Shown here: in pieces, positions 5,655-27,614 of the stretch
Numbering within the stretch: position 1 is the first letter of the stretch
How the letters are laid out: every line of letters begins with the position of its first letter
NCBI GenBank assembly: GCA_011525685.1
Contig: WYBW01000075.1
Location: 1 to 64,000 of the forward strand
DNA length: 64,000 nt
From: Verrucomicrobiia bacterium
Lineage (GTDB): Bacteria > Verrucomicrobiota > Verrucomicrobiia > Limisphaerales > JADLHS01
Direction: 5' to 3'
Notes under the pieces: model-generated
What the model saw: the letters and a program-made list of their open reading frames with translations, nothing else
Told to the model about the DNA's origin: nothing
Databases searched by the model: none
Translations under genes and position numbers: made by a program

Positions 5655-6284
5655 TCATCGAACCAGCGCTGGTGGAGTCGCCAAATCGGAATTCGAGACT
5701 TCATCCGTGAGCGCCTCTTCCCACGGATAACGGTCCGATCTGACGCGCGTCCAGAACAACCGGCCCGGCTTCCGCCAGGCATCGAGCACCAAACCCTCTT
5801 CAAACGGCTGTTCGCGTGCGGTCACGACAATACTGTTGTGTTCTCGCCAGGTGCCGGGGCGCGCGACGCCCCAATGCAGGTCCAGGGATGTCAGCGGCAG
5901 TGATTGAAGTTCAATCAGCAGGTCCTCGACAAAGTGGTAACAGAGGCCGCGCTGCTTGAATCCGAGGTTGACCAGGAGGTTGTGGAACAACGGTAGTCGC
6001 CCCATCCGATATTCTCGCGCCAAGTCCCGAGCCGAATCAACCGCCAGGGCAGCCACCGCACGAGACTCTTCCACGCTCACGTTCTGGCCCAACGAAGCCA
6101 GTTCGACCGCCAAACCCTCGACCGGATTGCATGGCGCGACAGTGGATTCCAGCGGGGGGGAACTCACTGGCACACCGTCAGTGGGCGCGCCGGATCGCAC
6201 GTTCGTGCAACCGGCCATTCCAGACGCGCCCAGCACCAACCCGCTCAGGCACAGCGCCGCTCCGCGAGCCGTCGCCCACCTCAT
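5655..6284 (-). CDS. Lipoprotein of unknown function
   Basis: A 209-residue protein when started at the ATG at 6284. This start places a lipoprotein signal (MRWATARGAALCLSGLVLGASGMAGC) at the N-terminus with lipobox cysteine at residue 26. The longer frame up to 6383 would add 33 residues in front of the signal and is less likely. The mature part is soluble and includes a stretch with conserved character (GRLPLFHNLLVNLGFKQRGLCYHFVEDL, then LDLHWGVARPGTWREHNSIVV). I do not recognise the family. The gene is monocistronic on the minus strand, convergent with kamA. Confidence 0.75.
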   Translation of the reverse strand: MRWATARGAALCLSGLVLGASGMAGCTNVRSGAPTDGVPVSSPPLESTVAPCNPVEGLAVELASLGQNVSVEESRAVAALAVDSARDLAREYRMGRLPLFHNLLVNLGFKQRGLCYHFVEDLLIELQSLPLTSLDLHWGVARPGTWREHNSIVVTAREQPFEEGLVLDAWRKPGRLFWTRVRSDRYPWEEALTDEVSNSDLATPPALVR

Positions 6285-8861: not shown

Positions 8862-9518
8862 TCACTCCGACGGCAGCACCGCATCACGGAATCGCGCATA
8901 CAGCAGGGCGGCTTCCGTGCGCGTGTGGACGTTCAACTTCACAAAGACGCGGTCCAGATAATTCCGCGCCGTCTTGGTCGTCAGACTCAGCGCCGCCGCC
9001 ACTTCCTTGTCCGTCTTGCCCCTGGCCACTTCCGCCAGCAACTTCCGCTCTTGCACGGTCAAGGCCGCCAGGGGATTGATGCCCGGACCGCCGGCGCCAC
9101 CCGGCATTTCACCCGGGTCAATGACCGGATCAAACACTTCACCCCCGTCCATGATGGTGCGGACCGCGTCCACGATCCGTTGCGTGTCGCTGTCCTTGAG
9201 CAAATAACCCTCGCCGCCGGCTTCCATCGCCGCCAGCACGAAGCGATTATCGGCGTACGAAGTCAGAAACAGCACGCGCGTGGAGGGTGACACCGCCTTG
9301 ATCCGCCGGCAGGCTTCGATGCCGTCGCCATCCGGCAAGCGCACGTCCATCAACACCACGTCCGGCTGCAACGCACGGACCGAAGCCACGGCGGATTGCA
9401 TGCTCGCCGCCTCGGCCACGATCTGAATCCCCGGCATCAACTCCTGCAGCCGGCGCAAGCCCTCGCGCACGACCGGATGGTCGTCCACCAGCAGCAGTTT
9501 GATCGTTTCCGGTTTCAT
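8862..9518 (-). CDS. NarL/LuxR-family response regulator
   Basis: A 218-residue two-domain regulator. The receiver domain (about 6-125) has acidic residues D12/D13, phosphoacceptor D58 in VVLMDVRLPDGDG, switch Thr in FLTSYAD and Lys in YLLKDSD. A Gly/Pro linker (about 130-145) leads to a LuxR-type helix-turn-helix (about 148-212) with LTVQERKLLAEVARGKTDKEVAAALSLT. Its start overlaps the stop of the sensor kinase by 4 bases (9515-9518), so the pair is cotranscribed and coupled. Target genes are unknown; the nearest candidates are the kinase operon itself and the secretion cluster across the divergent region. Confidence 0.95.
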   Translation of the reverse strand: MKPETIKLLLVDDHPVVREGLRRLQELMPGIQIVAEAASMQSAVASVRALQPDVVLMDVRLPDGDGIEACRRIKAVSPSTRVLFLTSYADNRFVLAAMEAGGEGYLLKDSDTQRIVDAVRTIMDGGEVFDPVIDPGEMPGGAGGPGINPLAALTVQERKLLAEVARGKTDKEVAAALSLTTKTARNYLDRVFVKLNVHTRTEAALLYARFRDAVLPSE

Positions 9519-11296
9519 GGGTGGGCCGGATCTTCGGAGTTCTCTGCCGCGCCCTCATGCGCCAAGGGCGCCACCGGCACGCGAACCACCACGCGGGTGC
9601 CCTGCCCCGCCGCGGATTGCAGGTCCAGTGTCCCGCCGATTTCCCGCGCCCGCGCCGCCATGCTGGCCAGACCGACGCCTTGGCGCGCGGGTGAACCCGG
9701 ATTGAAACCCCTGCCATCATCGGCCACCTCGAGACACACGGCACCGGTTTCGGAACGGAGGGAAACCTCCACGCGCCGCGGTTGCGCGTGACGCAGGCTG
9801 TTGCTCAGGGCCTCGCGCGCGATGTTCGCCAGTTGCACCGCCTGTGTGCCGGTCAGGCGGTCGGACGCCGCTTCATCACATTGCAGGCGAACTTCCGGAG
9901 TCGGGCCGGTCTGCGCACGCTGCACCGAAGCCAGCAACACCGCCGGCAAATCCACCGCCTGCTCTTGGCGCTCCTCCGCGGCGATAAACCGCCGCATCTG
10001 GGCGATGACCGCGTCCAGTTCCAATTGCACTCCCGCCAGTTCGCGCCGGGCGGCGGCGGGCTCCTCCGCCAGCCGTCGAACCGTGTGCTTGAGGCCGAGT
10101 TGAACCGCGTAGAGCGTCTGAATGGTGTTGTCATGCAGGTCATGACCGAGTTTCTCGCGTTCCTTCTGCGCGGCGGTCAACGCGTCGCGCGCCTCGCGGA
10201 TTTGATCGGTCAACCGCCTCTGCCGATGCGCGGCCCGCAACGCCAGTCCCACCAGTGCGCTCGCCAGCAACGTCATTCCCGTGCCGGCCGCCAGTGCCAG
10301 CCAGGCGCGATGACGCGGTGACTCCGCCTCGAACCGCGGCGTGCTGTTCATTTCCAGTGCCCAACGCCGCAAGTACCACGGCTGAACGATGACTTCGCGA
10401 TGACGCGGTTTGGCCGGCGCGGGCGAGACCGGATTGAGCAGGGACTCCGAAGTTGGTTCCGGACTGGCATACAGCCGCACATGCACCCGCGGAGAAACGC
10501 CCGGATGGTTGTAAGCCTGATCCAGCATCCGGTCGGTCGAAATGAACACCGCCAGCAGCCCGGTCGCGGCAGCGGTGTAAACTGACCGAACGCGATGCCG
10601 GAACTCCTCGTCCGATTCTCCCGACTGGCGTGAAAGGTTCAACGGTCCTTGATCCGGTTTGAAGCCCGGGATGACGAACCAGAAACCGTTCTCAAGGTTG
10701 CCGTCGCTGCGCGGCACACGAACCAGCCGGGAAGAAATCCAGGGACGCACGTGCCCCAACGCCGTTCGCATGGCGGGATGCCACGCTCCCTCTCGAGCCA
10801 GGTCGGTGCCCGGTTTGAGGGGTTGAAACCCCGTGCGCGACCAGAAACGCCACACCGGCAACGCCAGCTCGCGATCCGGCTGCGGCGACGGCTCGAAGGC
10901 GTACTTGTCACCGTGAGCCACCCGGCCTCGTTCGGCGTGAGACTTGAAATCGGCGGCCACGATCTTCGGACAGTAAGCCACATGCATGACGGACGGCAAA
11001 TTGTAGCGCGGCTCAGTCATGGCATTGAGTCGAAAACTCCAGACATCGGCGGGGAGTTCCTCGAACTGCGCGCAGTAATCGGCCAGGCGCGCGAGCCGTT
11101 CCTCATACCGCTCCATCGTCCCTTCGACCAGTTGGGCCAGGATGAGAGTTTCCAGTTTGAACCGCTGTTCATCCATCACCTCGGCCTGCCGATACAAGCT
11201 CCGCGCCAGCCACGCCGAAACGCTTAACCCCAGCACCAACGTCACCCACGCCGGCCAGTAAAAACGGCCGAGCCAGCGGTGGATGCGATTGGGCAT
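9515..11296 (-). CDS. CHASE-domain sensor histidine kinase (HisKA_3)
   Basis: A 593-residue kinase from the ATG at 11296. A longer frame to 11386 adds 30 Arg-rich residues and runs into the palindromic operator-like region. A first membrane segment (WPAWVTLVLGLSVSAWLA) is followed by a periplasmic CHASE-like sensor of about 270 residues. A second membrane segment (LALAAGTGMTLLASALVGLAL), a linker, and a HisKA_3 dimerisation helix with phosphoacceptor His in KLGHDLHDNTIQTLY follow. The HATPase domain has N-box-like NIAREALSNSLRHA and G-box DDGRGF. It is cognate to the overlapping response regulator. CHASE domains usually sense small extracellular molecules; the ligand cannot be read from the sequence. 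Confidence 0.93.
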   Translation of the reverse strand: MPNRIHRWLGRFYWPAWVTLVLGLSVSAWLARSLYRQAEVMDEQRFKLETLILAQLVEGTMERYEERLARLADYCAQFEELPADVWSFRLNAMTEPRYNLPSVMHVAYCPKIVAADFKSHAERGRVAHGDKYAFEPSPQPDRELALPVWRFWSRTGFQPLKPGTDLAREGAWHPAMRTALGHVRPWISSRLVRVPRSDGNLENGFWFVIPGFKPDQGPLNLSRQSGESDEEFRHRVRSVYTAAATGLLAVFISTDRMLDQAYNHPGVSPRVHVRLYASPEPTSESLLNPVSPAPAKPRHREVIVQPWYLRRWALEMNSTPRFEAESPRHRAWLALAAGTGMTLLASALVGLALRAAHRQRRLTDQIREARDALTAAQKEREKLGHDLHDNTIQTLYAVQLGLKHTVRRLAEEPAAARRELAGVQLELDAVIAQMRRFIAAEERQEQAVDLPAVLLASVQRAQTGPTPEVRLQCDEAASDRLTGTQAVQLANIAREALSNSLRHAQPRRVEVSLRSETGAVCLEVADDGRGFNPGSPARQGVGLASMAARAREIGGTLDLQSAAGQGTRVVVRVPVAPLAHEGAAENSEDPAHP

Positions 11297-11670
11297 GGCG
11301 ACACTTCTACGCGGAGCGCCCCGCCCAAGTCCACGCGAAACCACGCCGCGTTCCGTACTCCTACTGAGGGTATTTACCAGAGGCAAATGCCTCTAGCAGC
11401 CCGGCCCCCGATTGTGCGATGAACTTTCGTTCATGACCATGCGAGAAGACTGCAAACTGCCGGTTTGGCTTTGGAAGCAGGGCCGCTGGCAAATTCACTG
11501 CGAGCAGTGCGCTTTCCCGGCCCAGTTGGCCGTGCTTGCGGCGGTCGCAATCATGTTCCCTTCCCGCGCGGCGGCCAGCCCCAATTCATTTTGGTGGCCG
11601 CGGACGTGAGCGCGCTGAAACTCCTCGATTTCAGACCGATAACAAACGCGTGAAAGCAAGCGATGGAAAC
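11297..11670. other. Divergent intergenic region with stacked palindromes
   Basis: This gap separates the minus-strand kinase from the plus-strand secretion cluster. Besides the operator-like pair at 11369-11394 it has a hairpin at 11419-11434 (ATGAAC, TTTC, GTTCAT). No convincing gene is present; the 60-65-codon frames have no start signal or recognisable sequence. Confidence 0.5.
11369..11394. promoter_or_regulatory. Candidate operator: two abutting palindromes
   Basis: GGTA-TT-TACC at 11369-11378 is followed directly by AGAGGCA-AA-TGCCTCT at 11379-11394. It lies 73-98 bases upstream of the kinase start and about 280 bases upstream of the subtilase-propeptide remnant. NarL/LuxR-type regulators often bind short inverted TACC/GGTA-like half-sites, so autoregulation by the adjacent response regulator is plausible but unproven. 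Confidence 0.45.
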
Positions 11671-12066
11671 ATGAAAAGCCTTGGGTCAGCGACCCTCTTC
11701 TTTTGGCTCGCGGCCCTGGCCGCCAACGCTGCGGCCGCCCGCACGGATGGCGCGCAGCCCAGTTTGATCCAACCTACCTCGGATGTTACGAGCAATGAGG
11801 TAGCAGCGGACGTCAGTCCGCTCCATTTTCCCGCCCCCGCCCCCGCCGCCGTCGTCGCGCCGCCGGGGCCGCCGCTGTGGATTGTGGTCCTGCGCGAGGA
11901 CGCGCCGCTGGACGATTTCCTGGCCGACCACGGCATCTCGCCCCGCATGGTCTATCGCTCCATCAATGGCTTCGCCGCGCCGCTGGCCGACACCACCCGC
12001 GCCGTCCTGCGGGCGCAGGAGTCTCTAGGGAATGGCGGCGAAAAGGACATCAATCACAAAGTCTAA
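11671..12066 (+). pseudogene. Truncated subtilase: signal peptide and I9 propeptide only
   Basis: 131 codons from the ATG at 11671. A signal peptide (MKSLGSATLFFWLAALAANAAAA) and Pro/Ala-rich linker lead to WIVVLREDAPLDDFLADHG...VYRSINGFAAPLADTTRAVLRA. That is the inhibitor-I9 propeptide pattern of proteinase-K-type subtilases (Y/W-I-V-x-L, then NGFAA). Directly after it, where the S8 catalytic domain should begin, the sequence changes to SLGNGGEKDINHKV and stops. No Asp/His/Ser catalytic segment is found before the RHS gene. It is best read as the 5' remnant of a deleted protease gene whose 3' part was replaced by the RHS gene. A free I9-type inhibitor is the alternative. Confidence 0.65.
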
Positions 12067-12133: not shown

Positions 12134-15100
12134 ATGTTCAGACAGGTACGCTGCTGCGTTTTCGCCGTGCTTCTGTGGCTACCCGCGGCGAACGCCGCGT
12201 TGCCCCTCTTGGGCGATCTCAACAGCGATGGCGCGGTGACGGTGCTCGACCTGACCCGGCTGCAAAACCACCTGCACGGGGCCGATCCACTTCCATCGGA
12301 ATTGCAGCTTTTGGCCGACATCAATCAGGACGGACTGGTCAACGAACTGGACGTGACCGGCATCGCGGACATCATTCTGGGCATCCGGGCGCTTCAGGAA
12401 CTGCCGCCGCCGGCCATTCTGGCCACCTCACCCGGGTTTGGTGAGGGGAATGTCGCCCTGACGCGGGAAACCATCTTTCGGTTCACCCAACCGCTGGCCG
12501 TCACCAATGTCATCACCACCAATACGCTCTACGCCGAGTTTGGCGGGCGGCGCATTCTGAGCCGCGTGGAACTGGGCAGCGACCGCCGCTCGCTGACCTT
12601 GTTCTTTCTGGAGACCCTCCCGGCCAGCGCCCGGGTGCGCGTGACCCTCAATGGCAATGCCTTGGCGGGCGCGTTGGGCACGAAGGTGGATGTGGACGGC
12701 GATGGCGTCTCCGGCGGGCTGGGCTACCTCGAATTCGACACGGCCAGCATCACTCCCGTGCCGGGCACGGCGGTCATCGGCTGGGTCTTTGCCTCCGAAC
12801 TCGTGCCTGATCCGGACAACCTGACCAACTCCGTCAATGTGCCACTGGCGGGCGTCACCGTCACTGTGGATGGCGCGGAGCAAATGCTGCGGGCGGTCAC
12901 GGACACCAATGGGTTCTTCAGCCTCTCGCCCTGTCCCGCCGGCCGGTTCTTTGTGCATGTGGACGGGCGCACCGTCACCAATCTGGCGGCGGGCATCCGC
13001 TATCCGGACCTGGCCTATTACCCGTTTGTGGGCAAGGCGTGGGAAGCGGTGGCCGGTTACACGAACAACCTCGCGGGCGGCAACGGCTTGGTTTATCTGC
13101 CGCTGATCCAGCCGGGCACGCTGCAACCGGTGAGTTTGATCTCCAACACCGTCGTCACCTTCCCGGCAAGCGTGGTGGCCAGCAACCCGGCGTTGGCGGG
13201 CGTGGCGCTCTCGGTGCCGGCCGGGGCGCTCTACAATGACAACGGCCAGCGCGGCGGGCAGGTGGGCATCGCCCCGGTCGCGCCGGACCGCTTGCCCGAG
13301 CCGTTGCCTGCGGGACTCAACTTTCCACTGGTGATTACGGTGCAGACCGACGGCCCGCTGAACTTCAGTGAACCCGTGCCGATTTGCTTTCCCAATCTGC
13401 CGAACCCGCGGACCGGAGTTCCGCTGCCCCCCGGCGCCAAGTCGGCCCTTTGGAGTTTTGACCATGATACCGGCGTGTGGGTAATTCAGGGACCGATGAC
13501 GGTAACGCCCGATGGCACGATGGTTTGCAGCGATCCGGGTGTGGGCATTCGCCAGGCGGGCTGGCACGGGCAGGATCCGGCAACGCAAGGGGATGGCGGT
13601 GAGAATGAGGGTGATTGGCCTCCAGACCCTAACATGAATGACAAGGGCGAGAGTCCCTCGGCTGGATTTGGCGGACAATGCGGGTCGCCCGAACCATCAA
13701 ATCCAACAGATCCCGTGCATCTCTCTACAGGCGAGTTTTATCACAGCGAAGAAGACATGCGAATCAAGGGTGTTGGGATTGATTTTGTCTGGGCGCGAAA
13801 GTTCCTTTCCAAACGGGTTGATCGGACAGCGCCCTACTTGCCTTTCGGCCCTAGATGGACGCACTCTTATGCAATCCGCTTGCAGGTGAATCATGAGTGG
13901 CATCGTCCCCCCGGTTGTAGCAGGTGCAGAGGCATTCAAACCGTATTCACCGCACTTGGTGCAGTTAGCGGCGGAAGCAAAGCGTGTCCCTGCTGCGATA
14001 GCTTTCTTTTAGTACGGTCAGTGTCGGTAGTGGATGGCAATGGCCGAAGTGACGAATACTTCAGCAGCGGTCAGGGTTTCTACAGCGCGAAAGGTTTGCA
14101 TCGGGAACTGCGCCATACGGATAATGACACTTGGACTTTAGTCTTCGAAGACGGCGGCAAATGGGTGTTTTCCAGACTCGTCGGCTATCAAATTTCCAAA
14201 ATCGAAGACCGTCACGGAAATCACCTGGATTTCGAATACGAAAACTATGACGCTCCCGATTCTCCTCAATACCGTCTCGCTCGTGTGCGGGACACACAGG
14301 GCCGTGTCATTGGACTTACGTACAATCAGCTTAACCAAATCACGGCCGTCACCGACTTCACGGGCCGCTCGGTTCGGTATGATTATTATCTGCAAAATGA
14401 TCCGGACGGGTACGCCGGACTCTTGAAGGCCGTCATCAGTCCAAGGGTCACGGGCACGGTGAACGGAAACAATTACCCCGAGGGAAAACGCCGGACGTAC
14501 ACCTACTTCATCGGGCCACGATACGTGGCTGATTACTTCTATACCGAATGCAATCCCTACGCCGAGTATTTGGCCTCGTTCATCGCGATAAAAACAATCA
14601 GGGACGGTCGCGACAATGATCCGCTCGATCCGCGTTATGGTCAGGGCGCGTATTTGACGAATTATTTTGCAACCAATGGTTTCTCAGCAGGAAGCAAGTT
14701 TGTGTTCGTTCCTGTAACACAGCCGCCTGGGGAACAATGGGTCGAGGTTCCATACTTGCGGCTGATTCGGCAAACATGGGGAGGTCAGGACTTATTCGTG
14801 TCATACCAGCAGTATGGCGCGACGACGCAATACCGCGACCGCCCGGCGTTGGGCATATGCGGTGGACTTCAGGTTTCCGTCCGTGATCGAAACGGGAATG
14901 TGAAGGATTATCAATATGACACCTACAATCAGGCCCTGCGCTACCGAGAGTACGCGGGGCGCGCGGTCCTCAACACCAATGTTACGGTGAGTGACAACCG
15001 CCCCACGAATCCAATGCGCCTGTCTGACCCGCCTGTCTTCGAGACAACTTATGAGTACAATAGCCAGTTCCGGCAATCGCTCATCCAACACCCCAACGGC

Positions 15101-18100
15101 AACGCCGTTGCCTACCGATACCGCCAGGGGAGTGGCCGCAGTGCGGGCAATCTGCTGGCGGTCACGAATCTGCCCGGTATGCACCAGCCCGCCGGAGACC
15201 AGCCCGCCTTGGTCCGCACCTACGATTACGACACCGATTTCAATCCCTGCTGCGGTTTCAATTTCGCCACGAACATCACCGACGCCCGCGGCTTCTCGAT
15301 TCAAAGCAAGTATGACAACAAGGGCAACCTGACCAATCGCACGTTCCAGATTCCCGGCGTTGTGCAGGACTTCAAATACAACGCCCGCGGCCAGTTGACC
15401 GAGCGCATTCATCCGCCGAACAGCACTGGCCACCGGCGCGTGGATCGTTATGTCTATTACACCTCCGGCCCGCAGAACGGTTACCTGCGCTTTGCCATCA
15501 CGGATGCCACCGGCGTGGCGATGACCAACACGTTCGAATACGACGCGCGCGGCAACGTCACCCGCTGGATTGATCCGCGTGGCAAGGATACCCAATACCT
15601 CGTCAACCAGCTTGACCAGGTCGTGCGCCAGATTTCCCGCGAGGTCAAGGACGGCACGGGCATCCGCTACCAGAAGGATTACCACTACGATGCCAACAAC
15701 AACGTCACCAAGATCGAAGTTCAGAACCTCGACGAAAACGGCGTCGTCCAGCCCAACAGCCATTTCACCACGAGCTACGAATACGACATCCTCAACTACA
15801 TGACCCGTAAGACCGAGGAAGTGGAAGCGGGCCGCGTGATCGTGACCGAGTACGCCTACGATGGAAACCGCAACCTGACCGAGATTCGCAAGGGCGAAGC
15901 CACAGCGGGCCGCCAGCCGGCCAATATCGTCCAGTTCCAGTACGACGAGCGCGACCTGTTGTTCCGCGAAACCCGCGCGCCCGGCACGCCGGAGCAGTCC
16001 ACCACACAATACGATTACGACGGCAACAAGAATCTCATCCGCGTCATCCACGGGTTGGAGGGCGATCCGCACATCACCGAGCTGACCTACGACGGATTCG
16101 ATCGCCTGGTGGCGGTGCGCGATCCGATGGGCAATGAATCCCTGTTCAATTACGACCCCAACGGCAACCTGGTCCGCCGCCGGGTGAATGGCGAAGTGGT
16201 GGACGTGGGGGGCAACGCCAACAACGTCCTTCTGAGTGATGTGCAGTATGAATACGATCCCATGAACCGCCTTATCCGGCAGGACCGGGATTTGTTTGAT
16301 ACCGCCACGCAGGTGCCCCTTGGCCCGGGCGTGGCCAGCACGCGCATCGAATACAGCGGCACGTCGCAGATCATTCGCATGGTCAACGCCAACGGCCACA
16401 CGAACACCATTGCCTACGACACCGCCAACCGCCGACGCACGCTCACCGATGCCGCCGGCAACACCATCACGCTCGATTACGACAAGAACAACAACATCAC
16501 CATTGTGACCGAAGTGGAGAAGCCGGACCTCGGCGGGCCCAACGAAGTGTTCACCACCCGGTTTGAATACGACAATCTCAACCGGCTCACGGCCACCATT
16601 GACAACGTCAACACCACGAACCGGTTTGGCTGGGATTCTCGCGGAAATCGAACCGTCCATGTGAACGGCCGGGGCAACGTCGTCCGCTACACCTATGACG
16701 GCCTGAACCGCCCGCTGGACACCATCCGCTTCCTGACCGCCACCGGCGATGGCTCGGGCGCGGCCACCGGCACGATCACCACGCGCCAGGCGTGGGACGA
16801 GTCCTCGCGGCTCATCAGCCAGACCGACGACAATGGTAACGCCACCGTTTATATCTACGACGCGCTCGACCGGAAGATTGCCACCACCTACGCTGACGGC
16901 ACGGTCCATCACACCGTCTTTGACGTTCACGACAACCCCGTGCTGACGTTGGATGCCAACGGCACGTATGTGACCAATCAGTTCGACGCCCTGGACCGGC
17001 TGGTGCGGCGGGACATCGCGGTGGGGCCGGGCGTTTCAGACGACACCACCTTCGAGAACTACCGGTATGACGGACGGTCACAATTGGTCTGGGCCGAGGA
17101 TGACGATTCCACGGTGCAGATGGATTACGACTCGCTCTCGCGTGTGCTGCGGGACATCCAGAACGGGACAGTGGTGGCCTCCAGCTACGATCCCGCGGGG
17201 AACCTGACGGCCTTGTTCTATCCGAGCGGGCGCGTGGTGACGAACAGCTACGATGTGCTGGAGCGGCTCAAGACCGTGACGGACGCGGACGGTTTGATTG
17301 CGAGCTACGATTACGTGGGGCCGCGGCGGGTGAAGCGGCGCGATTACGGCAACGGCACGCGGATGACCTACGAATACGACGGCATCACCGGTGTGCCGAA
17401 CCCGGCGGGCGACTTCGGCGTGAAACAAGTGATCCGCACCACGCACTCGCACATTGCGACCGGCATCCCGTTTGATGACCGGGTTTACCGTTGGGATCGC
17501 GCCGGCAACAAGACCGTCCACAACGAGCTTCACGCAGGCGGAGATTCACGCGCCTACACCTACGACTCCGTGGACCGGCTGGTCCGCTCGGTCAAGACCC
17601 CGGCCTCCGGCCCGGTGGAGGACATCCAATACGTCCTCGATGGCGTGGGCAATCGCACGCAAGTCATTGGTGGACCAGATGCAGGCGTTTACTCCATGTC
17701 AGCCGCTGGCCCGGAGCCCGCCGACCGGCCGATGAATCAATACACCACCACGCCGTTTGGCACCGAGACGCATGACCGGAACGGCAACCTGATAGCGAAT
17801 AACGCCGGCCAGCCGAACCAGCGTCTCCTGATATACGACTTTCGTAACCGGATGGTGGGCGCGGCGATGCAGGAGACAGGCGTCACCGCCAGCTACGCTT
17901 ACGATGCTTTGGGTCGCAGGATTGGCAAACAGGTCGCGGGCGGCAGGGATCAAGCATCGGGCTTTGTGCATAAGGACTGGCGAGTGATCGAAGAACAGGA
18001 TCCCGGCATAGCCATGATCGCAAGCTACGTTCACGGAAGCTACATTGACGAGGTTCTGCAAATGGACCGGGGAGGGCAGCGCTTCGGCTACCATTCTGAT

Positions 18101-18904
18101 GATATGTTCAGCATTACCGCGCTCAGTTCCGGCACCGGCGTTGTGGTCGAACGCAACACCTATTCCGACTTTGGTCTTCCCTCTGCCGTTGATGGTGGGC
18201 AGTTGAGTTCCATTTCTGGAAACACGACCTTCTTTACGGGCCGTGACATTGACGTTGACACAAAGCTCCTCCACTTCCGCCTGCGAGATCAACGCCCGAG
18301 AATCGGAAAGTTCCTAGGGGTAGATCCACTAAGCAACTGGGGAGACCATGAAAATATGGGAAACGGGGCCGTGTACGTGGGTAATAATCCAGTTTCAAAA
18401 TCAGATCCGTATGGCCTAAAGCAATCAAGTCCGAATGACCCCCATCACAAGTTATTAGCATGTGCAAGCAGAGCTCTCGACGAGGTCACTAAAGAGTTTC
18501 CAAACCTCACAGGTATTGGTGGGTATGCCAAGCCATCAGATCGCCCTGGTCCGAGTTTTCACTCCTCCGGTGAAGCTCTCGATCTATTCCCCCCGAATTT
18601 TGATTATGGTCAAAAGGTCTTTGTCTGGGCCATCATCAACGCAAAACGACTTGGGATCACTCAAGTAATATGGAACGACCACATTTGGACTCCGGGGCGC
18701 GGTGTTCAGCCATACACGCATTACACTCTAAGAGTTCCCTCCCTGTTCGCCGTCCCCCGGTTTGAGGGAGACGAACTCTACAGAGACGAACTCTTTAAGA
18801 AAAAGGACAAAGGTTATGGGACGCTCCAACATCGTGACCACATTCACATCTCGTGCCCTGATGCACCAAGCTGTTCCAATGAGCCTAAGTTTACTATCGA
18901 GTAA
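12134..18904 (+). CDS. Dockerin-RHS/YD-repeat protein with LAS-peptidase-like C-terminal tip
   Basis: A 2256-residue secreted protein. The ATG at 12134 puts a signal peptide (MFRQVRCCVFAVLLWLPAANA) at the N-terminus; an in-frame ATG at 12032 would add 34 polar residues. Domain order, approximate: type I dockerin at 26-86 with two calcium loops (GDLNSDGAVTVLDL and ADINQDGLVNELDV); an SbsA-like Ig domain at 95-210; a carboxypeptidase-regulatory-like domain at 215-290; a beta domain to about 490; the RHS entry domain from 526 (DPVHLSTGEFYHSEEDM) with two CxxC pairs near 595-620; many YD repeats to about 1950; the RHS core ending NNPVSKSDPYGL at 2084-2095. The last 161 residues carry H2143-x6-D2150 (SFHSSGEALDLF), IWNDHIW and HRDHIHIS (H2233, H2236, H2238), like LAS/ARB-07466-type D-Ala-D-Ala peptidases. 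The tip is AT-richer than the repeats. No immunity gene is evident immediately downstream. Confidence 0.9.
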   Translation: MFRQVRCCVFAVLLWLPAANAALPLLGDLNSDGAVTVLDLTRLQNHLHGADPLPSELQLLADINQDGLVNELDVTGIADIILGIRALQELPPPAILATSPGFGEGNVALTRETIFRFTQPLAVTNVITTNTLYAEFGGRRILSRVELGSDRRSLTLFFLETLPASARVRVTLNGNALAGALGTKVDVDGDGVSGGLGYLEFDTASITPVPGTAVIGWVFASELVPDPDNLTNSVNVPLAGVTVTVDGAEQMLRAVTDTNGFFSLSPCPAGRFFVHVDGRTVTNLAAGIRYPDLAYYPFVGKAWEAVAGYTNNLAGGNGLVYLPLIQPGTLQPVSLISNTVVTFPASVVASNPALAGVALSVPAGALYNDNGQRGGQVGIAPVAPDRLPEPLPAGLNFPLVITVQTDGPLNFSEPVPICFPNLPNPRTGVPLPPGAKSALWSFDHDTGVWVIQGPMTVTPDGTMVCSDPGVGIRQAGWHGQDPATQGDGGENEGDWPPDPNMNDKGESPSAGFGGQCGSPEPSNPTDPVHLSTGEFYHSEEDMRIKGVGIDFVWARKFLSKRVDRTAPYLPFGPRWTHSYAIRLQVNHEWHRPPGCSRCRGIQTVFTALGAVSGGSKACPCCDSFLLVRSVSVVDGNGRSDEYFSSGQGFYSAKGLHRELRHTDNDTWTLVFEDGGKWVFSRLVGYQISKIEDRHGNHLDFEYENYDAPDSPQYRLARVRDTQGRVIGLTYNQLNQITAVTDFTGRSVRYDYYLQNDPDGYAGLLKAVISPRVTGTVNGNNYPEGKRRTYTYFIGPRYVADYFYTECNPYAEYLASFIAIKTIRDGRDNDPLDPRYGQGAYLTNYFATNGFSAGSKFVFVPVTQPPGEQWVEVPYLRLIRQTWGGQDLFVSYQQYGATTQYRDRPALGICGGLQVSVRDRNGNVKDYQYDTYNQALRYREYAGRAVLNTNVTVSDNRPTNPMRLSDPPVFETTYEYNSQFRQSLIQHPNGNAVAYRYRQGSGRSAGNLLAVTNLPGMHQPAGDQPALVRTYDYDTDFNPCCGFNFATNITDARGFSIQSKYDNKGNLTNRTFQIPGVVQDFKYNARGQLTERIHPPNSTGHRRVDRYVYYTSGPQNGYLRFAITDATGVAMTNTFEYDARGNVTRWIDPRGKDTQYLVNQLDQVVRQISREVKDGTGIRYQKDYHYDANNNVTKIEVQNLDENGVVQPNSHFTTSYEYDILNYMTRKTEEVEAGRVIVTEYAYDGNRNLTEIRKGEATAGRQPANIVQFQYDERDLLFRETRAPGTPEQSTTQYDYDGNKNLIRVIHGLEGDPHITELTYDGFDRLVAVRDPMGNESLFNYDPNGNLVRRRVNGEVVDVGGNANNVLLSDVQYEYDPMNRLIRQDRDLFDTATQVPLGPGVASTRIEYSGTSQIIRMVNANGHTNTIAYDTANRRRTLTDAAGNTITLDYDKNNNITIVTEVEKPDLGGPNEVFTTRFEYDNLNRLTATIDNVNTTNRFGWDSRGNRTVHVNGRGNVVRYTYDGLNRPLDTIRFLTATGDGSGAATGTITTRQAWDESSRLISQTDDNGNATVYIYDALDRKIATTYADGTVHHTVFDVHDNPVLTLDANGTYVTNQFDALDRLVRRDIAVGPGVSDDTTFENYRYDGRSQLVWAEDDDSTVQMDYDSLSRVLRDIQNGTVVASSYDPAGNLTALFYPSGRVVTNSYDVLERLKTVTDADGLIASYDYVGPRRVKRRDYGNGTRMTYEYDGITGVPNPAGDFGVKQVIRTTHSHIATGIPFDDRVYRWDRAGNKTVHNELHAGGDSRAYTYDSVDRLVRSVKTPASGPVEDIQYVLDGVGNRTQVIGGPDAGVYSMSAAGPEPADRPMNQYTTTPFGTETHDRNGNLIANNAGQPNQRLLIYDFRNRMVGAAMQETGVTASYAYDALGRRIGKQVAGGRDQASGFVHKDWRVIEEQDPGIAMIASYVHGSYIDEVLQMDRGGQRFGYHSDDMFSITALSSGTGVVVERNTYSDFGLPSAVDGGQLSSISGNTTFFTGRDIDVDTKLLHFRLRDQRPRIGKFLGVDPLSNWGDHENMGNGAVYVGNNPVSKSDPYGLKQSSPNDPHHKLLACASRALDEVTKEFPNLTGIGGYAKPSDRPGPSFHSSGEALDLFPPNFDYGQKVFVWAIINAKRLGITQVIWNDHIWTPGRGVQPYTHYTLRVPSLFAVPRFEGDELYRDELFKKKDKGYGTLQHRDHIHISCPDAPSCSNEPKFTIE

Positions 18905-19112
18905 ACATAACAACTGAGGAGCGGGTCGAACACCAAATCGTATGAAACGGATAATTAGCATTGCCAGTTTTGATAGTGAAATTCTTAGATGTTTAAGAGT
19001 TGCAATCGCGCTGTAGATGCACACAGCAAGTTCCATTTTGAATGATCAGGATTGTGCTCAAAGATGGGCTGAACAAGCGCGCTCGCGCTTACTCTTTCGG
19101 AAGCATAGCCTC

Positions 19113-21896
19113 ATGTTGATCAGCTTATTGAGGCGCAGACTAAGCCAAAGTTTAATCTGTGTGGTGTTAGTATTCCACTTCACCAACGTCCAGTTTCTGG
19201 CTCATAGTCAAAGTCCTGCCCCGGTAAGTCGATTGTATTATCTCATCGAAAACCGCGAAACCGGCGACATTGTGCGTCGAGGCACGACCACGGATGCCGG
19301 TTTGCTGCCGAACGAACTCATCCTCGCGCCCGAGACGATTTATCGGATGTGGCTGTATGATCCGGCCACGGATTTGCTCGGATTTGAGGACATCGAAACG
19401 CCCACCGCCGGCCAGCGGTTTCGCATCCCGCCCATTCAACTGCGCATCCCCATGGCCCCGGATTCCGACGGGGACGGCCTTTCGGATGACGCCGAGTTTG
19501 TCATCGGCACGGATCCCAACAATCCCGACACCAGCGGCACGGGTATTTCGGACGGCGCGGCCATCCGGCAGGGTTTGAATCCGCTGCAAGACCGTCCGGT
19601 CATCACCGGTGTCATCGCCTCAGTGGCCACACAGGGCCTGGCCAGCGACATTTACGCGCAATCCGGAGTGGCGGTCATGGCCGTGGGGTCTGCCGGGGTG
19701 GTGGTCTTCAACACCGCTAACAGCGCCAATCCCATCCGCGTGGCGCAGGTGGACACACCGGGAGATGCCATGAGGGTGGCCGGTTCGGGCAACTTGATTG
19801 CGGTGGCTGATGGTCCGGCCGGTCTGGCCGTGCTGGATGTTTCCTCGCCTTCGCAAGCGAGCGTGGTGCGCCAGGTGAATCTGGGCGGCACGGCCCGGGC
19901 CGTGGCGGCGGGGGCGGGCATCGCCTACATCGGGACTGCCAGCGGTCAGTTGGTGTCGGTGGACCTCGCCTCCGGCATAATCCTGGCCCGCGCGAATGCC
20001 GGGGCCATCGTGCATGACATCGCCTTCGGTGACGACGCCTTGCTGGTGGTGGCGGGGGATCAGTTGCGCAGCTATCGCTACGATGCGGGCGGACTTGATT
20101 TGCTCGGCACGGTCGCAGCGTCGGGGTTTATTCCCGACGGCAAGACGGGCGCGAGACGGCTCTTCGTCGGTGGTGGCATTGCCTACGTCACAAGTTACCC
20201 GGGTTACGACACGTTCAACGTCAGCGATCCGGCCGCCATGGTCCGGATCGGGAGCGCGGTGGATGGCGGGTTCAATGCCTTCAAACAGATCGTGGCGAAC
20301 GGTTCGGGACTGGGTCTGGCGGCGGTGGGGGTGAATCCCGGGGAGGATGTCACCCATCACATCTCGCTCTACAACGTCAGCAACCCGGCGCAAACCACCA
20401 GCTTCATCACCACCCTCCAAACGCCGGGCGTGGCGCGGGCGGTGTCCATCTACAACGGCCTTGCCTACGTGGCGGACAGCTCCAGCTTGCAGGTGGTCAA
20501 TTACCTGGCGTTCGACACGGGCACGAATCCGCCCACCATTTCGCTCACCGCCAGTTTCCCGCTCAACCCGGCGCAGGCCGAGGAAGGCAAAATCGTCCGG
20601 GTGACGGCGCAGGTCACGGATGATGTGCAGGTGCGGAACGTGGAGTTTTACCTGGACGGCCAGCAGGTGACCAGTGACGGCAATTTCCCCTTCGAGCATC
20701 GGTTCGTCACGGCGCTGCGTTCGCTGGGGCGGACGAATTTCACCGTGCAAGCCCGCGCGTTTGACACCGGCGGGCGCTCGACGTGGTCGGAATTGATCAC
20801 GGTGGCCCTGGTGCCGGATGCGACGCCGCCGCACGTCACGGGCACGTTCCCGGCCAGCAGCGCGATTGCGGGCGCGTTGAGCCAGGTTGCCGCCACCTTC
20901 AATGAACCCATCAACCCCGCGACGTTGAACAGCAATTCCTTCCGCGTGGCGTTGGTGGGACCGGACGGATTGCCCGGCACGGCGGATGACGTGTTCATTC
21001 CCGGCGGCTTGATCACCTACAACGATGCCGCGAATCGAGCGACGCTGACTTTCCCGACGAATCTCGCGCCGGGGGCATATTCCATCCGGGTGCAGTCACC
21101 GGTTGCAGACCTCGCGGGGAATCCGATGGCCGCGCCTTTCTTCAGCCGGTTCTGGATCACCGGCGGTGTGGACAGTGATCAGGACGGCATCCCGGACGAC
21201 ATCGAGTTGCTGATGGGCCTGAATCCCAACAACCCGGATTCCAACGGGAACGGCACCTGGGATGGTGACGAGGATGCGGATGGCGACGGTTTGCGCAACA
21301 GTTGGGAGATACTGTGGGAACTCAACCCTCTGGTAGCGGACACCGGCGGCACTGGCACCCCTGACGGCCAACGCGACCCGGATACGGATGGTCTGACCAA
21401 TCTTCAGGAGCAGGCCGCCGGCACGAATCCCACTGTCGCCGACACGGACGGGGACGGGTGGAATGATGAAACAGAAATCACCGCGGGAAGCGATCCCCTG
21501 GATCCCGCGTCCAAGCCGAAGCTCTTTTTCGTCAGTGCGCCGGCTGCGGCACTGGCGGTGCCGGTAATCCCTGACACGGAGGCGAGTGATTTCCTCCGGG
21601 TCGGTGCGGTGGTGGCGCGGCCGGCGGCGTCTCTCGCCGTGCCGGTCCTGCCGGCGGCCAGTGCGCAACTTGAGTTGGCACGCGGGACGGTGGTGGCCCG
21701 GCCTGCGGCGTCACTGGCCATACCGGTCCTGCCGCCAGCCAGCGCGCAACTTGAGTTGGCACGCGGGACGGTGGTGGCGCGGCCCGCAGCGGCCTTGGCC
21801 ATACCAGTCGTGCCCGCCGTCACACCGATTGATGTCGCCAATTTCGGCGCGGTCATTGCCGCGCCACCAGCCCAGATTCAAATCAACACTCCATGA
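19113..21896 (+). CDS. Secreted beta-propeller, Ig and TSP3-repeat protein
   Basis: A 927-residue protein from the ATG at 19113, which gives a signal peptide (SLICVVLVFHFTNVQFLAHSQ); the in-frame ATG at 19017 is less likely. After about 60 residues there is a TSP3-type calcium motif (DSDGDGLSDDAEFVIGTDPN). Then come LVIVD-like beta-propeller repeats (GLAVLDVSSPSQASVV, AYVADSSSLQVV), an Ig-like segment, an SbsA-type domain (DATPPHVTGTFPASSAIAG) and more TSP3 motifs (DSDQDGIPDDIELLMGLNP, DTDGDGWNDETEITAG). It ends with 27-residue tandem repeats. It follows the RHS gene on the same strand, separated by about 200 AT-rich bases. It is probably a surface or matrix protein; the ligand is unknown. 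Confidence 0.85.
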   Translation: MLISLLRRRLSQSLICVVLVFHFTNVQFLAHSQSPAPVSRLYYLIENRETGDIVRRGTTTDAGLLPNELILAPETIYRMWLYDPATDLLGFEDIETPTAGQRFRIPPIQLRIPMAPDSDGDGLSDDAEFVIGTDPNNPDTSGTGISDGAAIRQGLNPLQDRPVITGVIASVATQGLASDIYAQSGVAVMAVGSAGVVVFNTANSANPIRVAQVDTPGDAMRVAGSGNLIAVADGPAGLAVLDVSSPSQASVVRQVNLGGTARAVAAGAGIAYIGTASGQLVSVDLASGIILARANAGAIVHDIAFGDDALLVVAGDQLRSYRYDAGGLDLLGTVAASGFIPDGKTGARRLFVGGGIAYVTSYPGYDTFNVSDPAAMVRIGSAVDGGFNAFKQIVANGSGLGLAAVGVNPGEDVTHHISLYNVSNPAQTTSFITTLQTPGVARAVSIYNGLAYVADSSSLQVVNYLAFDTGTNPPTISLTASFPLNPAQAEEGKIVRVTAQVTDDVQVRNVEFYLDGQQVTSDGNFPFEHRFVTALRSLGRTNFTVQARAFDTGGRSTWSELITVALVPDATPPHVTGTFPASSAIAGALSQVAATFNEPINPATLNSNSFRVALVGPDGLPGTADDVFIPGGLITYNDAANRATLTFPTNLAPGAYSIRVQSPVADLAGNPMAAPFFSRFWITGGVDSDQDGIPDDIELLMGLNPNNPDSNGNGTWDGDEDADGDGLRNSWEILWELNPLVADTGGTGTPDGQRDPDTDGLTNLQEQAAGTNPTVADTDGDGWNDETEITAGSDPLDPASKPKLFFVSAPAAALAVPVIPDTEASDFLRVGAVVARPAASLAVPVLPAASAQLELARGTVVARPAASLAIPVLPPASAQLELARGTVVARPAAALAIPVVPAVTPIDVANFGAVIAAPPAQIQINTP
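21535..21880 (+). repeat. Tandem 81-bp coding repeat (27-residue unit)
   Basis: About four units of the pattern A-R-P-A-A-S-L-A-V/I-P-V-L-P plus a spacer ending LELARGTVV. The two central copies are nearly identical: the segment starting at 21666 recurs 81 bases later at 21747. It forms the C-terminus of the beta-propeller/TSP3 protein and could expand or contract by slippage or recombination. Confidence 0.85.
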
Positions 21897-23151: not shown

Positions 23152-24066
23152 ATGAAAACTCAACTGCAATGGCAGGCGATAGCGGTGGTGGTCCTCATGA
23201 CCGCTCGCATGGTCACGGCGCAAACGGTGGAAACGAACGCGGCCACCATTTCCGCCGGGCTGGTGCGTGGCATTCCCGGAAGCACGGTGAACATGCCGCT
23301 GAGTTTCGGCCACACCGGCACGGTGGCCGCCGTTCAGTATGACTTGAGTTTTAATCCCACCCGCATGAGCGCGGGAACACTTTCCGGTGCTCCGGTGACC
23401 AACGCGGTGTTGCGCTCGCGTCAGATTGCGCCGGGCCAGTATCGGGTGTTGCTGTATCGCAGCGGCGCACCACTGTTGGCCACCACCAATGACCTGGGCG
23501 GCATCCCGTTTACCGTGCCGGCGGGACAGTTATCGGGTGGCGGCGGTCCCGTAATCATCACCAACGTCGTCGCCAGCTCGCTGGCTGCCACCGCCCTCAC
23601 GCCGATCCGCCGTCAGCACGGCAACGTGCTGGTCGGTCCCGTTTATCGCGCTCCCGACGGTGTGGTGGACTTGTTCCTTACCGTTGCCCCCAACCAGCTC
23701 TATGTCATCCAGGCCACGACGGACTTTATCGGGTGGGTCAACATCGCGACCAATTTTGCCACACAAGATTACCTTGTGGCGCAGGACGCCGATGCGGTGA
23801 ACTTCCCCATGCGGTTTTACCGTGCGGTGCCGGTGGGCGCAGCGGGCGGCGGGCTGATCACCAGCCTGATGATGGTCGGGGCCAACGAAATGAGCTTTGG
23901 CTACGCCACGCTGGCCGGTCGCACTTACGTGCTGCAAACCTCCACCAACCTGGCGGCGTGGAACAATCTGACCACTAATGTTGCTCCCGGCACGCTGCTG
24001 AATTTCACCAACGCGATTTCACCCGCCGTGCCAAGCCAGTTCTTCCGCATCCTGGAGTTGCCGTGA
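23152..24066 (+). CDS. Secreted cohesin-like protein with two C-terminal STNL modules
   Basis: A 304-residue protein with a signal peptide (to about A23, VTA before QTVE). Residues about 30-150 match the cohesin pattern: GLVRGIPGSTVNMPLSF, then VQYDLSFNPTRM (the yDp-like strand), IPFTVPAG, and RRQHGNVLV closing like the cohesin G-x-V-x-V strand. Cohesins bind dockerins. The RHS protein encoded 4.2 kb upstream has a dockerin. Two copies of a small module follow, LYVIQATTDFIGWVNIATN...FYRAVP and TYVLQTSTNLAAWNNLTTN...FFRILELP. The stop overlaps the GTG start of the next gene by 3 bases. The cohesin call rests on motif order, not on a search. Confidence 0.75.
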   Translation: MKTQLQWQAIAVVVLMTARMVTAQTVETNAATISAGLVRGIPGSTVNMPLSFGHTGTVAAVQYDLSFNPTRMSAGTLSGAPVTNAVLRSRQIAPGQYRVLLYRSGAPLLATTNDLGGIPFTVPAGQLSGGGGPVIITNVVASSLAATALTPIRRQHGNVLVGPVYRAPDGVVDLFLTVAPNQLYVIQATTDFIGWVNIATNFATQDYLVAQDADAVNFPMRFYRAVPVGAAGGGLITSLMMVGANEMSFGYATLAGRTYVLQTSTNLAAWNNLTTNVAPGTLLNFTNAISPAVPSQFFRILELP

Positions 24067-25523
24067 AGTGTCGGCTCTCACGATGGCTGCTGGGGGTGTT
24101 GTGCCTGGTCTGGCCGATGGAGGGTCGGGCGGATGTGGTTTTGGATTGGACCGCGCTGATGTTGGATTGCATCCGGGTGGAAACCACCGCGCCCACGTTG
24201 AGCGCCCGGAATCTGGCCATTCTCCATACGGCCATGTACGACGCGGTGAATTCGGTCAACCGCACACACCAGCCTTATCGTTTTCAGTTGAACACACCGG
24301 CGGAAACTTCGGCCGAAGCGGCAGCGGTGGAAGCGGCATTCCGGGTCACGGCGATTTTGTATCCATCGCAACTGGCATGGGCCAGCGATTTGCGCGCCAG
24401 CTACCTGGCTGCGGCCACGCCGGGACTTGCGCTGACCAACGGATTGAGCTTGGGCTATTTGGTGGGCTTGCTCACGGTGGATTCGCGCAGCAACGACGGC
24501 TCAAACACCGAAGTTCCCTACATTCCAAGCACTGATCCGGGCCAATGGCAGCGGACGCCCCCGTTTTTTCGCCCGCCGCTGACGCCGCACTGGGGCTATG
24601 TGGATCCCTTTTGCCTGAGCGATATTGAGCCATTTGTTCCCGGCCCGCCACCGGCTTTGGACAGTCCCGAATACGCCGCGGCTCTCAACGAAGTCAAAGC
24701 CATCGGTGGACAGGGCAGCTCGGTTCGCACCGCCGAGCAGAGCCAGATCGCGGTGTTCTGGTCCGACTTCAGTTACACCGCCATGCCACCGGGGCATTGG
24801 CATGAAATTGCGGCCACGATCGCGCAGAGCCGGGGCAACACGCTGGCGGAGAACGCGCGGATGTTCGCGTTGCTCAGTCTCGCACAGGCGGACGCCGCCA
24901 TCGTGTGTTGGGAAGCAAAGTATCGCTACAATCTCTGGCGACCGGTCACTGCGATTCGACGGGCAGACGAAGATAACAACGCAACCACGGAAAAGGATGC
25001 GGCTTGGAATCATTATCTGGCTTCGCCCCCGTTTCCCGCTTACACCAGCGGGCACAGCACGTTCAGCAAAGCCAGCGCGCAGGTGTTGACGCACTTCTAC
25101 GGCACGGACGCGATCGAGTTCACCGCCACTTCCGATTCGTTGCCTGGGGTGGCCCGCCACTTCACCAGCCTCGCGGCGTGCGCCGATGAAGTTGGCATGA
25201 GCCGGATTTACGGCGGAATTCACTTCCAGTTCGACAACACGGCGGGGAAAGCCAGCGGCCAAGCCATTGGCGATTACGTCACGGCGAACTTCCTGCTCCC
25301 GAATGACCGGCTGCCACTGGTGCGGATGGAAGGACTGGCGGACGGCAAGCCCGTCCTGCGGATGCATGGACACATCGGTAGCCCGTTTGTGTTGGAGGCC
25401 TCACCGGACCTACAGCATTGGCACGGCGTTGCCACCAACACAGCGGCAGTGGGCGGCTTGGTGCTTGTAGATAGCCGCCCGGGTCTGCCATCGGCTTGCT
25501 TCTATCGGGTTGTCCCACCATAG
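24063..25523 (+). CDS. Vanadium-dependent haloperoxidase/PAP2-family exported enzyme
   Basis: A 486-residue protein starting with GTG (overlapping the previous stop in GTGA). The signal peptide is SRWLLGVLCLVWPMEGRA. The vanadate/phosphate pocket motifs are present in order: KYRYNLWRP (Lys and Arg), YTSGHSTFS (the Ser-Gly-His acid-base triad) and SRIYGGIHFQFDN (Arg and the vanadate-coordinating or nucleophilic His). Spacing and length suit bacterial vanadium chloro/bromoperoxidase homologs, which halogenate organics or act as acid phosphatases; which reaction applies cannot be told. The C-terminus carries one STNL-type module (FVLEASPDLQHWHGVATN...FYRVVPP), shared with the gene upstream. It is the last gene of the overlapping run. 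Confidence 0.88.
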   Translation: MKCRLSRWLLGVLCLVWPMEGRADVVLDWTALMLDCIRVETTAPTLSARNLAILHTAMYDAVNSVNRTHQPYRFQLNTPAETSAEAAAVEAAFRVTAILYPSQLAWASDLRASYLAAATPGLALTNGLSLGYLVGLLTVDSRSNDGSNTEVPYIPSTDPGQWQRTPPFFRPPLTPHWGYVDPFCLSDIEPFVPGPPPALDSPEYAAALNEVKAIGGQGSSVRTAEQSQIAVFWSDFSYTAMPPGHWHEIAATIAQSRGNTLAENARMFALLSLAQADAAIVCWEAKYRYNLWRPVTAIRRADEDNNATTEKDAAWNHYLASPPFPAYTSGHSTFSKASAQVLTHFYGTDAIEFTATSDSLPGVARHFTSLAACADEVGMSRIYGGIHFQFDNTAGKASGQAIGDYVTANFLLPNDRLPLVRMEGLADGKPVLRMHGHIGSPFVLEASPDLQHWHGVATNTAAVGGLVLVDSRPGLPSACFYRVVPP

Positions 25524-26040: not shown

Positions 26041-26502
26041 TTATTCCCCCACACTATTTAGCGCGGCGTCCCGGATGTCCGGGGTAAGATACATGCCCGC
26101 TTCCTGGTCGAGCCGTGCGAGCAAGGTTCGCGCGGAAGGAATAAGCACTTTGCGTTTTGCCAGGAGCACGACGCCCAGCAGGCCGATCACAGCCACGCCT
26201 TCCTGGACGGCGAGTTTGCGGCCTTTGCGTTCGTCAATCAGCAGTCGGTCGGCCTGGAGTTCTCGCGCCAATTCTATCGCCTCGGCTTCGGCCGCATCCA
26301 CGATCTCAGCATATTTGCCCACTTGGGCGGTGTCTTGGACGGTGGCGGTGCGCAACCAATCTGGGAGCGGAGAATGGTTGCGGGTCAGTTCGCGGCGAAC
26401 GGCCTCGGGGACGATGACTTCGTGGAAAAGGTTGGGCAACAGCGTCGCTTCACCCACCGTCAGCAGCGCTGTGAGCGGTGATGTATCGGAAACGACAATC
26501 AT
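26041..26502 (-). CDS. PIN-domain toxin (DUF3368 type)
   Basis: A 153-residue PIN-fold protein. The acidic nuclease residues expected of PIN proteins are visible: D6 in VVSDTSPL, E in EAEAIELARE (about residues 72-81), and DER in LLIDERKGRKLA (about residues 88-98). The C-terminal region LARLDQEAGMYLTPDIRDAAL is typical of DUF3368 toxins. Such proteins are presumed RNases neutralised by a small antitoxin. Its start overlaps the stop of the UPF0175 gene by 4 bases (26499-26502). The pair sits between two genes that carry the same C-terminal STNL module, as if inserted into the cluster. Confidence 0.9.
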   Translation of the reverse strand: MIVVSDTSPLTALLTVGEATLLPNLFHEVIVPEAVRRELTRNHSPLPDWLRTATVQDTAQVGKYAEIVDAAEAEAIELARELQADRLLIDERKGRKLAVQEGVAVIGLLGVVLLAKRKVLIPSARTLLARLDQEAGMYLTPDIRDAALNSVGE

Positions 26503-26744
26503 CGCGCGGCGAGGGCTTCAACGGCGCGCAAGTCGGCGGCCAGTTCCTCCCTGCCGTAGTGAATGGGAATGCGACGCCGACCGAGTTCGCGCAGGAAAGC
26601 AGCCTGGGAAAGCCCGGCAACTTCTGCCGCCTGCCCGAGCGTGGCTTCCTCAGTCACAAAGAGGCCAATGGCCAGATGCAGGGACATCTCGCGTGGCGAG
26701 AGTCGCGCTTCAAGATGTTCAGGCAAGGTCAGCGTCATTTCCAT
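26499..26744 (-). CDS. UPF0175-family antitoxin
   Basis: An 81-residue protein with the UPF0175 pattern: a short beta strand (TLTLPEHLEARL), then LHLAIGLFVTEEATLGQAAEVAGLSQAAFLRELGRRRIPIHYG, a helix-turn-helix-like segment. UPF0175 genes regularly precede DUF3368 PIN toxins and are taken as their antitoxins and autorepressors. It is the first gene of the pair. Confidence 0.9.
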   Translation of the reverse strand: MEMTLTLPEHLEARLSPREMSLHLAIGLFVTEEATLGQAAEVAGLSQAAFLRELGRRRIPIHYGREELAADLRAVEALAAR

Positions 26745-26831
26745 TTGTTATTCTGCCAGTCATCCTATCACGCAACGCCGATATGGCAATCATCGCCTTC
26801 TTGCAGAACCGATTGAACCCACCCTCACAAC

Positions 26832-27614
26832 ATGAGCACGAATAAACAGAAGTTGTTTGCAAGGAGAAGCATTTGCCTGGGCGCGTACGGCCTCTTGCTC
26901 GCCTCTATTGGCATGGCCTCCGGCATTCCCGAACCCGCGCTCATTCTTTATGGCAGTGTCACCAACACGGCCGGCCCACTCCTGCTCACGTCGGGCGGGG
27001 TGAATTGGCTGGTTGTCGGCGCGGCCTCCAGTGCCTCGGCCTCCTCGACCATTGCCAGCGTGAACGGCCAGTTTTTCTACGTCGCCCGCATCCCGTTTGA
27101 AACCCGTTCCGCCGGTAACCTCACGTTCACTCCGTCGCCCAACACGCTGCCGCTCACCGCCGCCCCAAGCAATTTTACCCGGTCGGCCACGGTGATTGGC
27201 GTCGTCGCCACACTCGTTCCGCCCGCCTCCACCAACTTCACCTTCAGCAAAGCCGACCGAGGCCGCATCGAGCGCGTGGACCTGCTGGTCAATCTGCCCC
27301 TTGATCCCGCCCTCGACTCCGACGGCGATGGAGTGCCCGATTGGGCCGAACTCATCGCCGGCACGGATCCTTACGATCCGGATTCCGTCTTCAAAGCCTC
27401 CACCGAGCTTCAACCCGCCTCCGGCGGCGGCCTGATCATCAAATGGGCCAGTGTGGCCGGCAAAACCTACTCGATACATCGCAGCACGAACTTATCCCAA
27501 GGCTTCAGCCTGCTGGTGGACAATCTCCCAGCCACCGCACCGCAGAACCAATACACCGATTCCACCGCCACCACTGCCGGACCATACTTCTATCGCATCG
27601 CCGTAAGTCCGTAG
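26832..27614 (+). CDS. Secreted protein with TSP3 calcium motif and STNL module
   Basis: A 260-residue protein with a signal peptide (ICLGAYGLLLASIGMASG). An N-terminal beta-rich domain of about 150 residues contains YGSVTNTAGPLLLTSGGVNWLVVG and RIPFETRSAGNLTFTPSPN. It is followed by one TSP3-like loop (DSDGDGVPDWAELIAGTDPYDPDS) and a C-terminal STNL-type module (TYSIHRSTNLSQGFSLLVDN...FYRIAVSP). The module links it to the cohesin-like and haloperoxidase genes on the other side of the toxin-antitoxin pair. The function is unknown; surface attachment is inferred from module sharing. Confidence 0.8.
   Translation: MSTNKQKLFARRSICLGAYGLLLASIGMASGIPEPALILYGSVTNTAGPLLLTSGGVNWLVVGAASSASASSTIASVNGQFFYVARIPFETRSAGNLTFTPSPNTLPLTAAPSNFTRSATVIGVVATLVPPASTNFTFSKADRGRIERVDLLVNLPLDPALDSDGDGVPDWAELIAGTDPYDPDSVFKASTELQPASGGGLIIKWASVAGKTYSIHRSTNLSQGFSLLVDNLPATAPQNQYTDSTATTAGPYFYRIAVSP

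Follow-up and report, generated by a model that had tools for sequence, protein, structure and literature searches.

A VldE/Mt3-type peptidase domain as predicted exchangeable tip of a secreted dockerin-containing RHS protein in a Verrucomicrobiia bacterium

Organisation of the RHS gene

The window, i.e. the whole stretch of 64,000 nucleotides of contig WYBW01000075.1 that was analysed, contains a large RHS gene whose product ends, beyond the RHS core, in a separate domain of 161 residues, here called the tip. The parts of the gene are as follows.

12134 to 18904, plus strand: RHS gene, 2256 residues from the ATG at 12134
12134 to 12196, plus strand: putative Sec-type signal peptide MFRQVRCCVFAVLLWLPAANA, recognised by eye from the sequence
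12209 to 12358, plus strand: type I dockerin domain, residues 60-109 of the 2290-residue open reading frame (Pfam PF00404, E 1.3e-10, over the cut-off)
12404 to 13606, plus strand: N-terminal scaffold; parts of it resemble Big_5 and CarboxypepD_reg, each under the Pfam cut-off
13709 to 13897, plus strand: DUF6531, start of the RHS module (PF20148, E 2.5e-12)
18197 to 18418, plus strand: RHS-associated core end, closing with DPYGL (TIGR03696, E 5e-11, residues 2056-2129)
18419 to 18901, plus strand: tip, a VldE/Mt3-type LAS metallopeptidase domain of 161 residues according to homology, profile and fold searches
18560 to 18583, plus strand: HSSGEALD, with tip residues H48 and D55 as equivalents of VldE H301 and D308 (alignments)
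18668 to 18688, plus strand: IWNDHIW block; its Trp, W85, is the same in all 44 aligned sequences of the family
18830 to 18847, plus strand: HRDHIH, with H138, D140, H141 and H143 as equivalents of VldE H370, D372, H373 and H375 (alignments)

The longest open reading frame of the gene has 2290 residues and is open from 12032, so that its numbering runs 34 ahead of that of the 2256-residue protein; H48 and D55 of the tip are H2177 and D2184 in the former and H2143 and D2150 in the latter. RHS repeats were also detected (PF05593, E 1e-46). The last residue of the TIGR03696 match is the end of DPYGL (residue 2129 in the 2290-residue numbering, nucleotide 18418), and this order of repeats, core end and tip in the Pfam and NCBIfam matches is the layout of an RHS polymorphic toxin. 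A preliminary description of the same DNA had put an H-x6-D motif (HSSGEALD), IWNDHIW and HRDHIHIS in the 161 residues past DPYGL, and each was found where it had been placed. No cohesin that could receive the dockerin was found in the bacterium's own genome.

Identity of the tip

Pfam, NCBIfam and PADLOC gave no match to the tip (Pfam and NCBIfam up to E 10), the Peptidase M15/VanY Pfam model found nothing even at E 10, PHROGs yielded weak tape-measure and endolysin matches and nothing stronger, and scans of viral contigs with single tip sequences found nothing. A phmmer search of the PDB with the window's tip alone matched one protein only, the pneumococcal VldE (two entries of its sequence), in its C-terminal domain (E 3e-6). 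VldE (Spr1875) of Streptococcus pneumoniae has been solved in several structures (PDB 9FLH-9FLN; PMC11667670). Among phages, the tblastn matches of the tip (E 5e-7) were tape-measure proteins, from mycobacteriophages and from Gordonia phages; the domain matched in them is the one known as Mt3.

A profile was built from 44 sequences, namely the window's tip, a same-genus relative, two Nocardioides-type proteins and 40 viral relatives. It matched VldE over the whole domain (E 2e-30), followed by M15B carboxypeptidases (E ~0.003, the profile level being the only one at which the tip appears akin to M15) and desert hedgehog (E 0.04); such secondary matches form the pattern expected of the LAS group. 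The same alignment was used for an AlphaFold2 model (mean pLDDT 79, pTM 0.74), which replaced an earlier, poor prediction from four sequences (pLDDT 53) and in which the loop preceding H-x-D-H-x-H is poorly modelled. When the model was compared with the PDB by Foldseek the top five matches were all VldE (E 1e-7 to 4e-6), with a TM score of 0.81 against the active-state VldE structure. Among the best fold matches was also a viral protein named for an ARB-07466-like C-terminal domain, a name that comes from the database only; a literature search found no paper on this domain.

The preliminary description had proposed a LAS/M15/ARB-07466-like D-Ala-D-Ala peptidase. Profile, model and fold searches bear out the LAS fold and the ARB-07466-like kinship; the D-Ala-D-Ala specificity was not supported, as VldE cuts L-Ala-D-Glu and no M15/VanY model matches. 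Taking alignments and model together, the tip is assigned to the VldE/Mt3 branch of the LAS (clan MD) peptidases, with VldE as the nearest solved relative. The assignment rests on homology and not on the motif, since chance can well produce the bare layout, H-x6-D followed further on by H-x-H: it was present in 5.5% of shuffled tips, and the layout with H-x-D-H-x-H in 19 of 200,000. A chance motif in a domain with no LAS relationship would be in keeping with the first of these frequencies and with the silence of Pfam and NCBIfam, but it is refuted by the significant homology that phmmer, tblastn, profile and fold searches all give, and its probability is negligible.

Active site and predicted specificity

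VldE is an L-Ala-D-Glu endopeptidase acting on cross-linked stems, in which the zinc ligands H301, D308 and H375 as well as H370, D372 and H373 are each essential; E368, the residue that closes a latent state with several zinc ions, is dispensable (PMC11667670). In the alignments all six essential residues are kept in the tip (H48, D55, H143, H138, D140 and H141), and H48, D55 and H143, the predicted zinc ligands, align with H301, D308 and H375. The two domains share fold, zinc ligands and the equivalents of H370-x-D372-H373-x-H375. They differ in that the position of E368 is Leu136 in the tip, the tip loop before H-x-D-H-x-H is longer and identity in the fold alignment is ~20%. VldE also has an N-terminal wall-binding module and acts on the wall of its own producer, whereas the tip ends an RHS protein.

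The viral relatives in the alignment were gathered by the H-x-D-H-x-H pattern, which makes the invariance of that motif among them a product of construction; independent invariance was found for H48, G51, A53, D55 and W85. Proteins containing Mt3 hydrolyse peptidoglycan in zymograms, and in Mt3 of the tape-measure protein of mycobacteriophage TM4 a well-conserved Trp has been mutated (PMC1796659). Mt3 of TM4 shares with the tip the domain type, the Trp, H-x6-D and H-x-D-H-x-H, but it lies inside a tail protein and aids DNA entry (PMC1796659). Most phage members have HMDH with IWxQ, compared with HRDH and IWND in the tip. The Arg that follows GGY in the family is Ala37 in the tip; the position of the transition-state Arg of VldE (R294) is not clearly kept, and K38 or R42 might replace it.

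Because VldE cuts L-Ala-D-Glu, this bond is, by analogy, a likelier target for the tip than D-Ala-D-Ala. The unclear position of the catalytic Arg, the extended loop and a long tree branch (2.24 changes per column) could also mean that the fold was kept while peptidoglycan cleavage was lost, the tip now binding a wall peptide or another target. Retention of the six VldE-essential residues and of the invariant Trp would be unexpected after a loss of catalysis, and we regard this reading as improbable. A working peptidase remains the preferred one.

Exchange of the tip among relatives

Two genomes from other families of the same order, G153 and G172, encode RHS proteins that are 43% and 40% identical to that of the window over ~2,000 residues, aligning from the dockerin region through the core end. 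(The Pfam dockerin is over the cut-off in the G153 relative and not in that of G172.) Along the scaffold identity to the window ranges from 32 to 61%, and it is 38-40% over the last 60 residues of the core. Beyond the core end no similarity to the window's tip was detectable, blastp of that tip against either of the other two giving no match at E 10. The comparison shows exchange of tips on one scaffold directly, and the suggestion in the preliminary description of a swapped polymorphic tip is strongly supported by these full-length relatives with unrelated tips. Relatives of the scaffold that can be followed end to end and diverge at the core end provide a natural experiment on tip exchange.

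The tip class itself is rare, with credible carriers in 2 of 196 genomes of the order: the window's own genome and G130, of the same genus. A third match within the order (G152, with an internal stop) sits in an unrelated gene and was dismissed as spurious. Other matches within the phylum are short open reading frames and were set aside; the one examined, L024, looks VanY-like and has no RHS part. The G130 tip is ~30% identical to that of the window and is carried by a different RHS protein, which reads as SpvB-type. In the window's own genome an SpvB-type scaffold bears another tip, and the remaining RHS proteins of that genome have diverse tips. The tip-bearing genes of the window and G130 lie at the same locus, with flanking genes shared at 64-86% identity, and the boundaries of the shared locus in the window are as follows.

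9515 to 11386, minus strand: histidine-kinase-like gene (a kinase as read from its sequence), left boundary, 64-65% identity in G130
26044 to 27614, no single strand: right boundary, a PIN-like open reading frame, a small open reading frame and a secreted protein of 260 residues, with 74, 86 and 78% identity in G130

The right-boundary genes are in the same order in G130; the PIN-like label comes from reading the putative protein only. The possibility that the tips of window and G130 are sister copies, retained at a common locus as the scaffold changed, is neither supported nor rejected by the tree (p-AU 0.256, long branches).

Base composition was the other argument for a swap. The hand counts of the preliminary description, 29/60 G+C at 18481-18540 and 46/60 at 16741-16800, are exact, and over its length the tip has a GC of 0.495 and a GC3 of 0.50 against 0.595 and 0.73 in the core. 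A GC as low as that of the tip occurs in 1% of the 483-bp stretches of the window, all of them starting between 18201 and 18901. The drop is thus real, yet it is weak evidence for a swap, because most other RHS tips in the genome also drop in GC and because it is off the tip boundary, starting at ~18,000 inside the core and continuing beyond the stop to ~19,200. GC dips a second time, less strongly, at 13,650-14,850. In the G153 and G172 relatives the GC of the tip is not below that of the core.

Partner gene and scaffold family

The RHS gene is followed directly by a second gene.

19113 to 21896, plus strand: partner gene encoding a signal peptide and a C-block (LVIVD, Big_7, Big_5 and TSP3 repeats)

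There is no credible small gene at 18905-19112, and neither a terminator-like nor a promoter-like site was found between the two genes. No immunity gene lies next to the tip in the window, G153 or G172, the partner gene following directly in all three. The C-block has its homologue in the C-terminal half of proteins built on the same N-terminal scaffold. This scaffold (residues 125-525) was found in a further 23 genomes of the order at ~50-70% identity and is common to many giant secreted proteins there. Relatives with both parts in G003 and G013 consist of the scaffold, a variable middle of ~190-520 residues and then a C-block homologue. In the dockerin-RHS form (window, G153, G172) scaffold and C-block are encoded by separate adjacent genes, with the RHS module between them. 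A recent RHS insertion that split a scaffold gene was considered and rejected, the two-gene form being shared by G153 and G172 from other families.

Scaffold and C-block may, tentatively, mark an undescribed polymorphic carrier family of the order. Many of its members would be one protein with a variable middle, and the dockerin-RHS members would be split, bearing the exchangeable enzyme as RHS tip and having no adjacent immunity genes; we hold this reading as a whole to be less likely than not. Single-protein relatives with scaffold, C-block and differing middle cassettes were seen at L052-L056, L058-L060, L062, L063 and L065. L062 (G003, 958-5952) has a prokaryotic phospholipase A2 as its middle cassette (PF09056, E 2e-7).

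Proposed function

RHS tips are classic polymorphic toxins (PMC3482391); the available part of that source makes no mention of M15, VanY or D-Ala-D-Ala. LAS-type peptidases have already been described as toxin domains, both VanY-like (PMC12419801) and M15-like in T6SS effectors (PMC12135965). Peptidoglycan-targeting polymorphic toxins have in common with the protein studied here an enzyme that can be exchanged, an RHS or other protein as its carrier, and the wall as target; they are typically coupled to immunity genes, whereas none adjoins the window's tip. No report of an RHS protein with a VldE/Mt3 tip came up in a search mainly of the open-access literature. The type of tip is thus known, and its combination with an RHS carrier has, as far as found, not been described before.

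We consider the tip likely to be a VldE/Mt3-branch zinc peptidase that forms the exchangeable end of a Sec-exported dockerin RHS protein and cuts the peptidoglycan of neighbours; the protein would probably be a weapon or tool against the walls of other bacteria. We infer that its export relies on Sec and on one more, unspecified step. In solved RHS proteins the RHS part encloses the tip, and by analogy the RHS part would enclose and shield the tip here. Cleavage after DPYGL would then free the tip, which, with one zinc on H48, D55 and H143, may cut stem peptides, most likely at L-Ala-D-Glu. Cutting of stem peptides in neighbouring bacteria would weaken their walls.

In the main rival reading the tip does work as a peptidoglycan endopeptidase, but in the service of the producer, opening or remodelling its own wall or digesting wall debris, and not as a weapon. 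VldE is a stress-related wall-remodelling enzyme (PMC11667670), plasmid relatives are found as part of a transglycosylase-family protein or close to an FtsK-like gene, and the dockerin, like the domains of the partner, points to a role at the cell surface or outside it. The missing immunity gene likewise favours a role for the producer or in scavenging. Against it, unrelated tips on one scaffold suit antagonism better than housekeeping, and the tip is rare in the order; we judge a producer role unlikely, if less so than a loss of cleavage. Antagonism, the preferred reading, raises the question of how the producer would be protected with no immunity gene nearby.

A secreted RHS protein with a VldE- and Mt3-like zinc L,D-endopeptidase is a testable prediction. 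It would bring enzymes of phage entry, an enzyme that remodels the wall and a polymorphic tip together in one domain family.

Other features of the locus and its relatives

A short open reading frame at 11536-12066 resembles a piece in the same place in G130 (L005, 1614-2387); by eye it is a protease-inhibitor- or propeptide-like fragment and may represent a truncated gene. A secreted protein of 1212 residues is encoded at this locus in G130 (L005, 2399-6037); by eye it contains an M23-like wall-peptidase stretch (HAGLDLAA...HLHFEL) along with a sulfatase-modifying-type domain, which would make it a possible second wall enzyme of the locus. In the window, 24063-25523 encodes a vanadium-chloroperoxidase-like PAP2 protein (PF01569, E 4e-10).

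The tips of L163 (G172) and L012 (own genome) both contain an NNCQHY motif, which suggests one shared tip family, perhaps papain-like. A remnant of an RHS core end lies on the minus strand at 33501-33668 in a frame of 94 residues (TIGR03696, 26 bits), and it closely resembles the core ends of L008, L013 and L014 of the same genome, whose tips differ.
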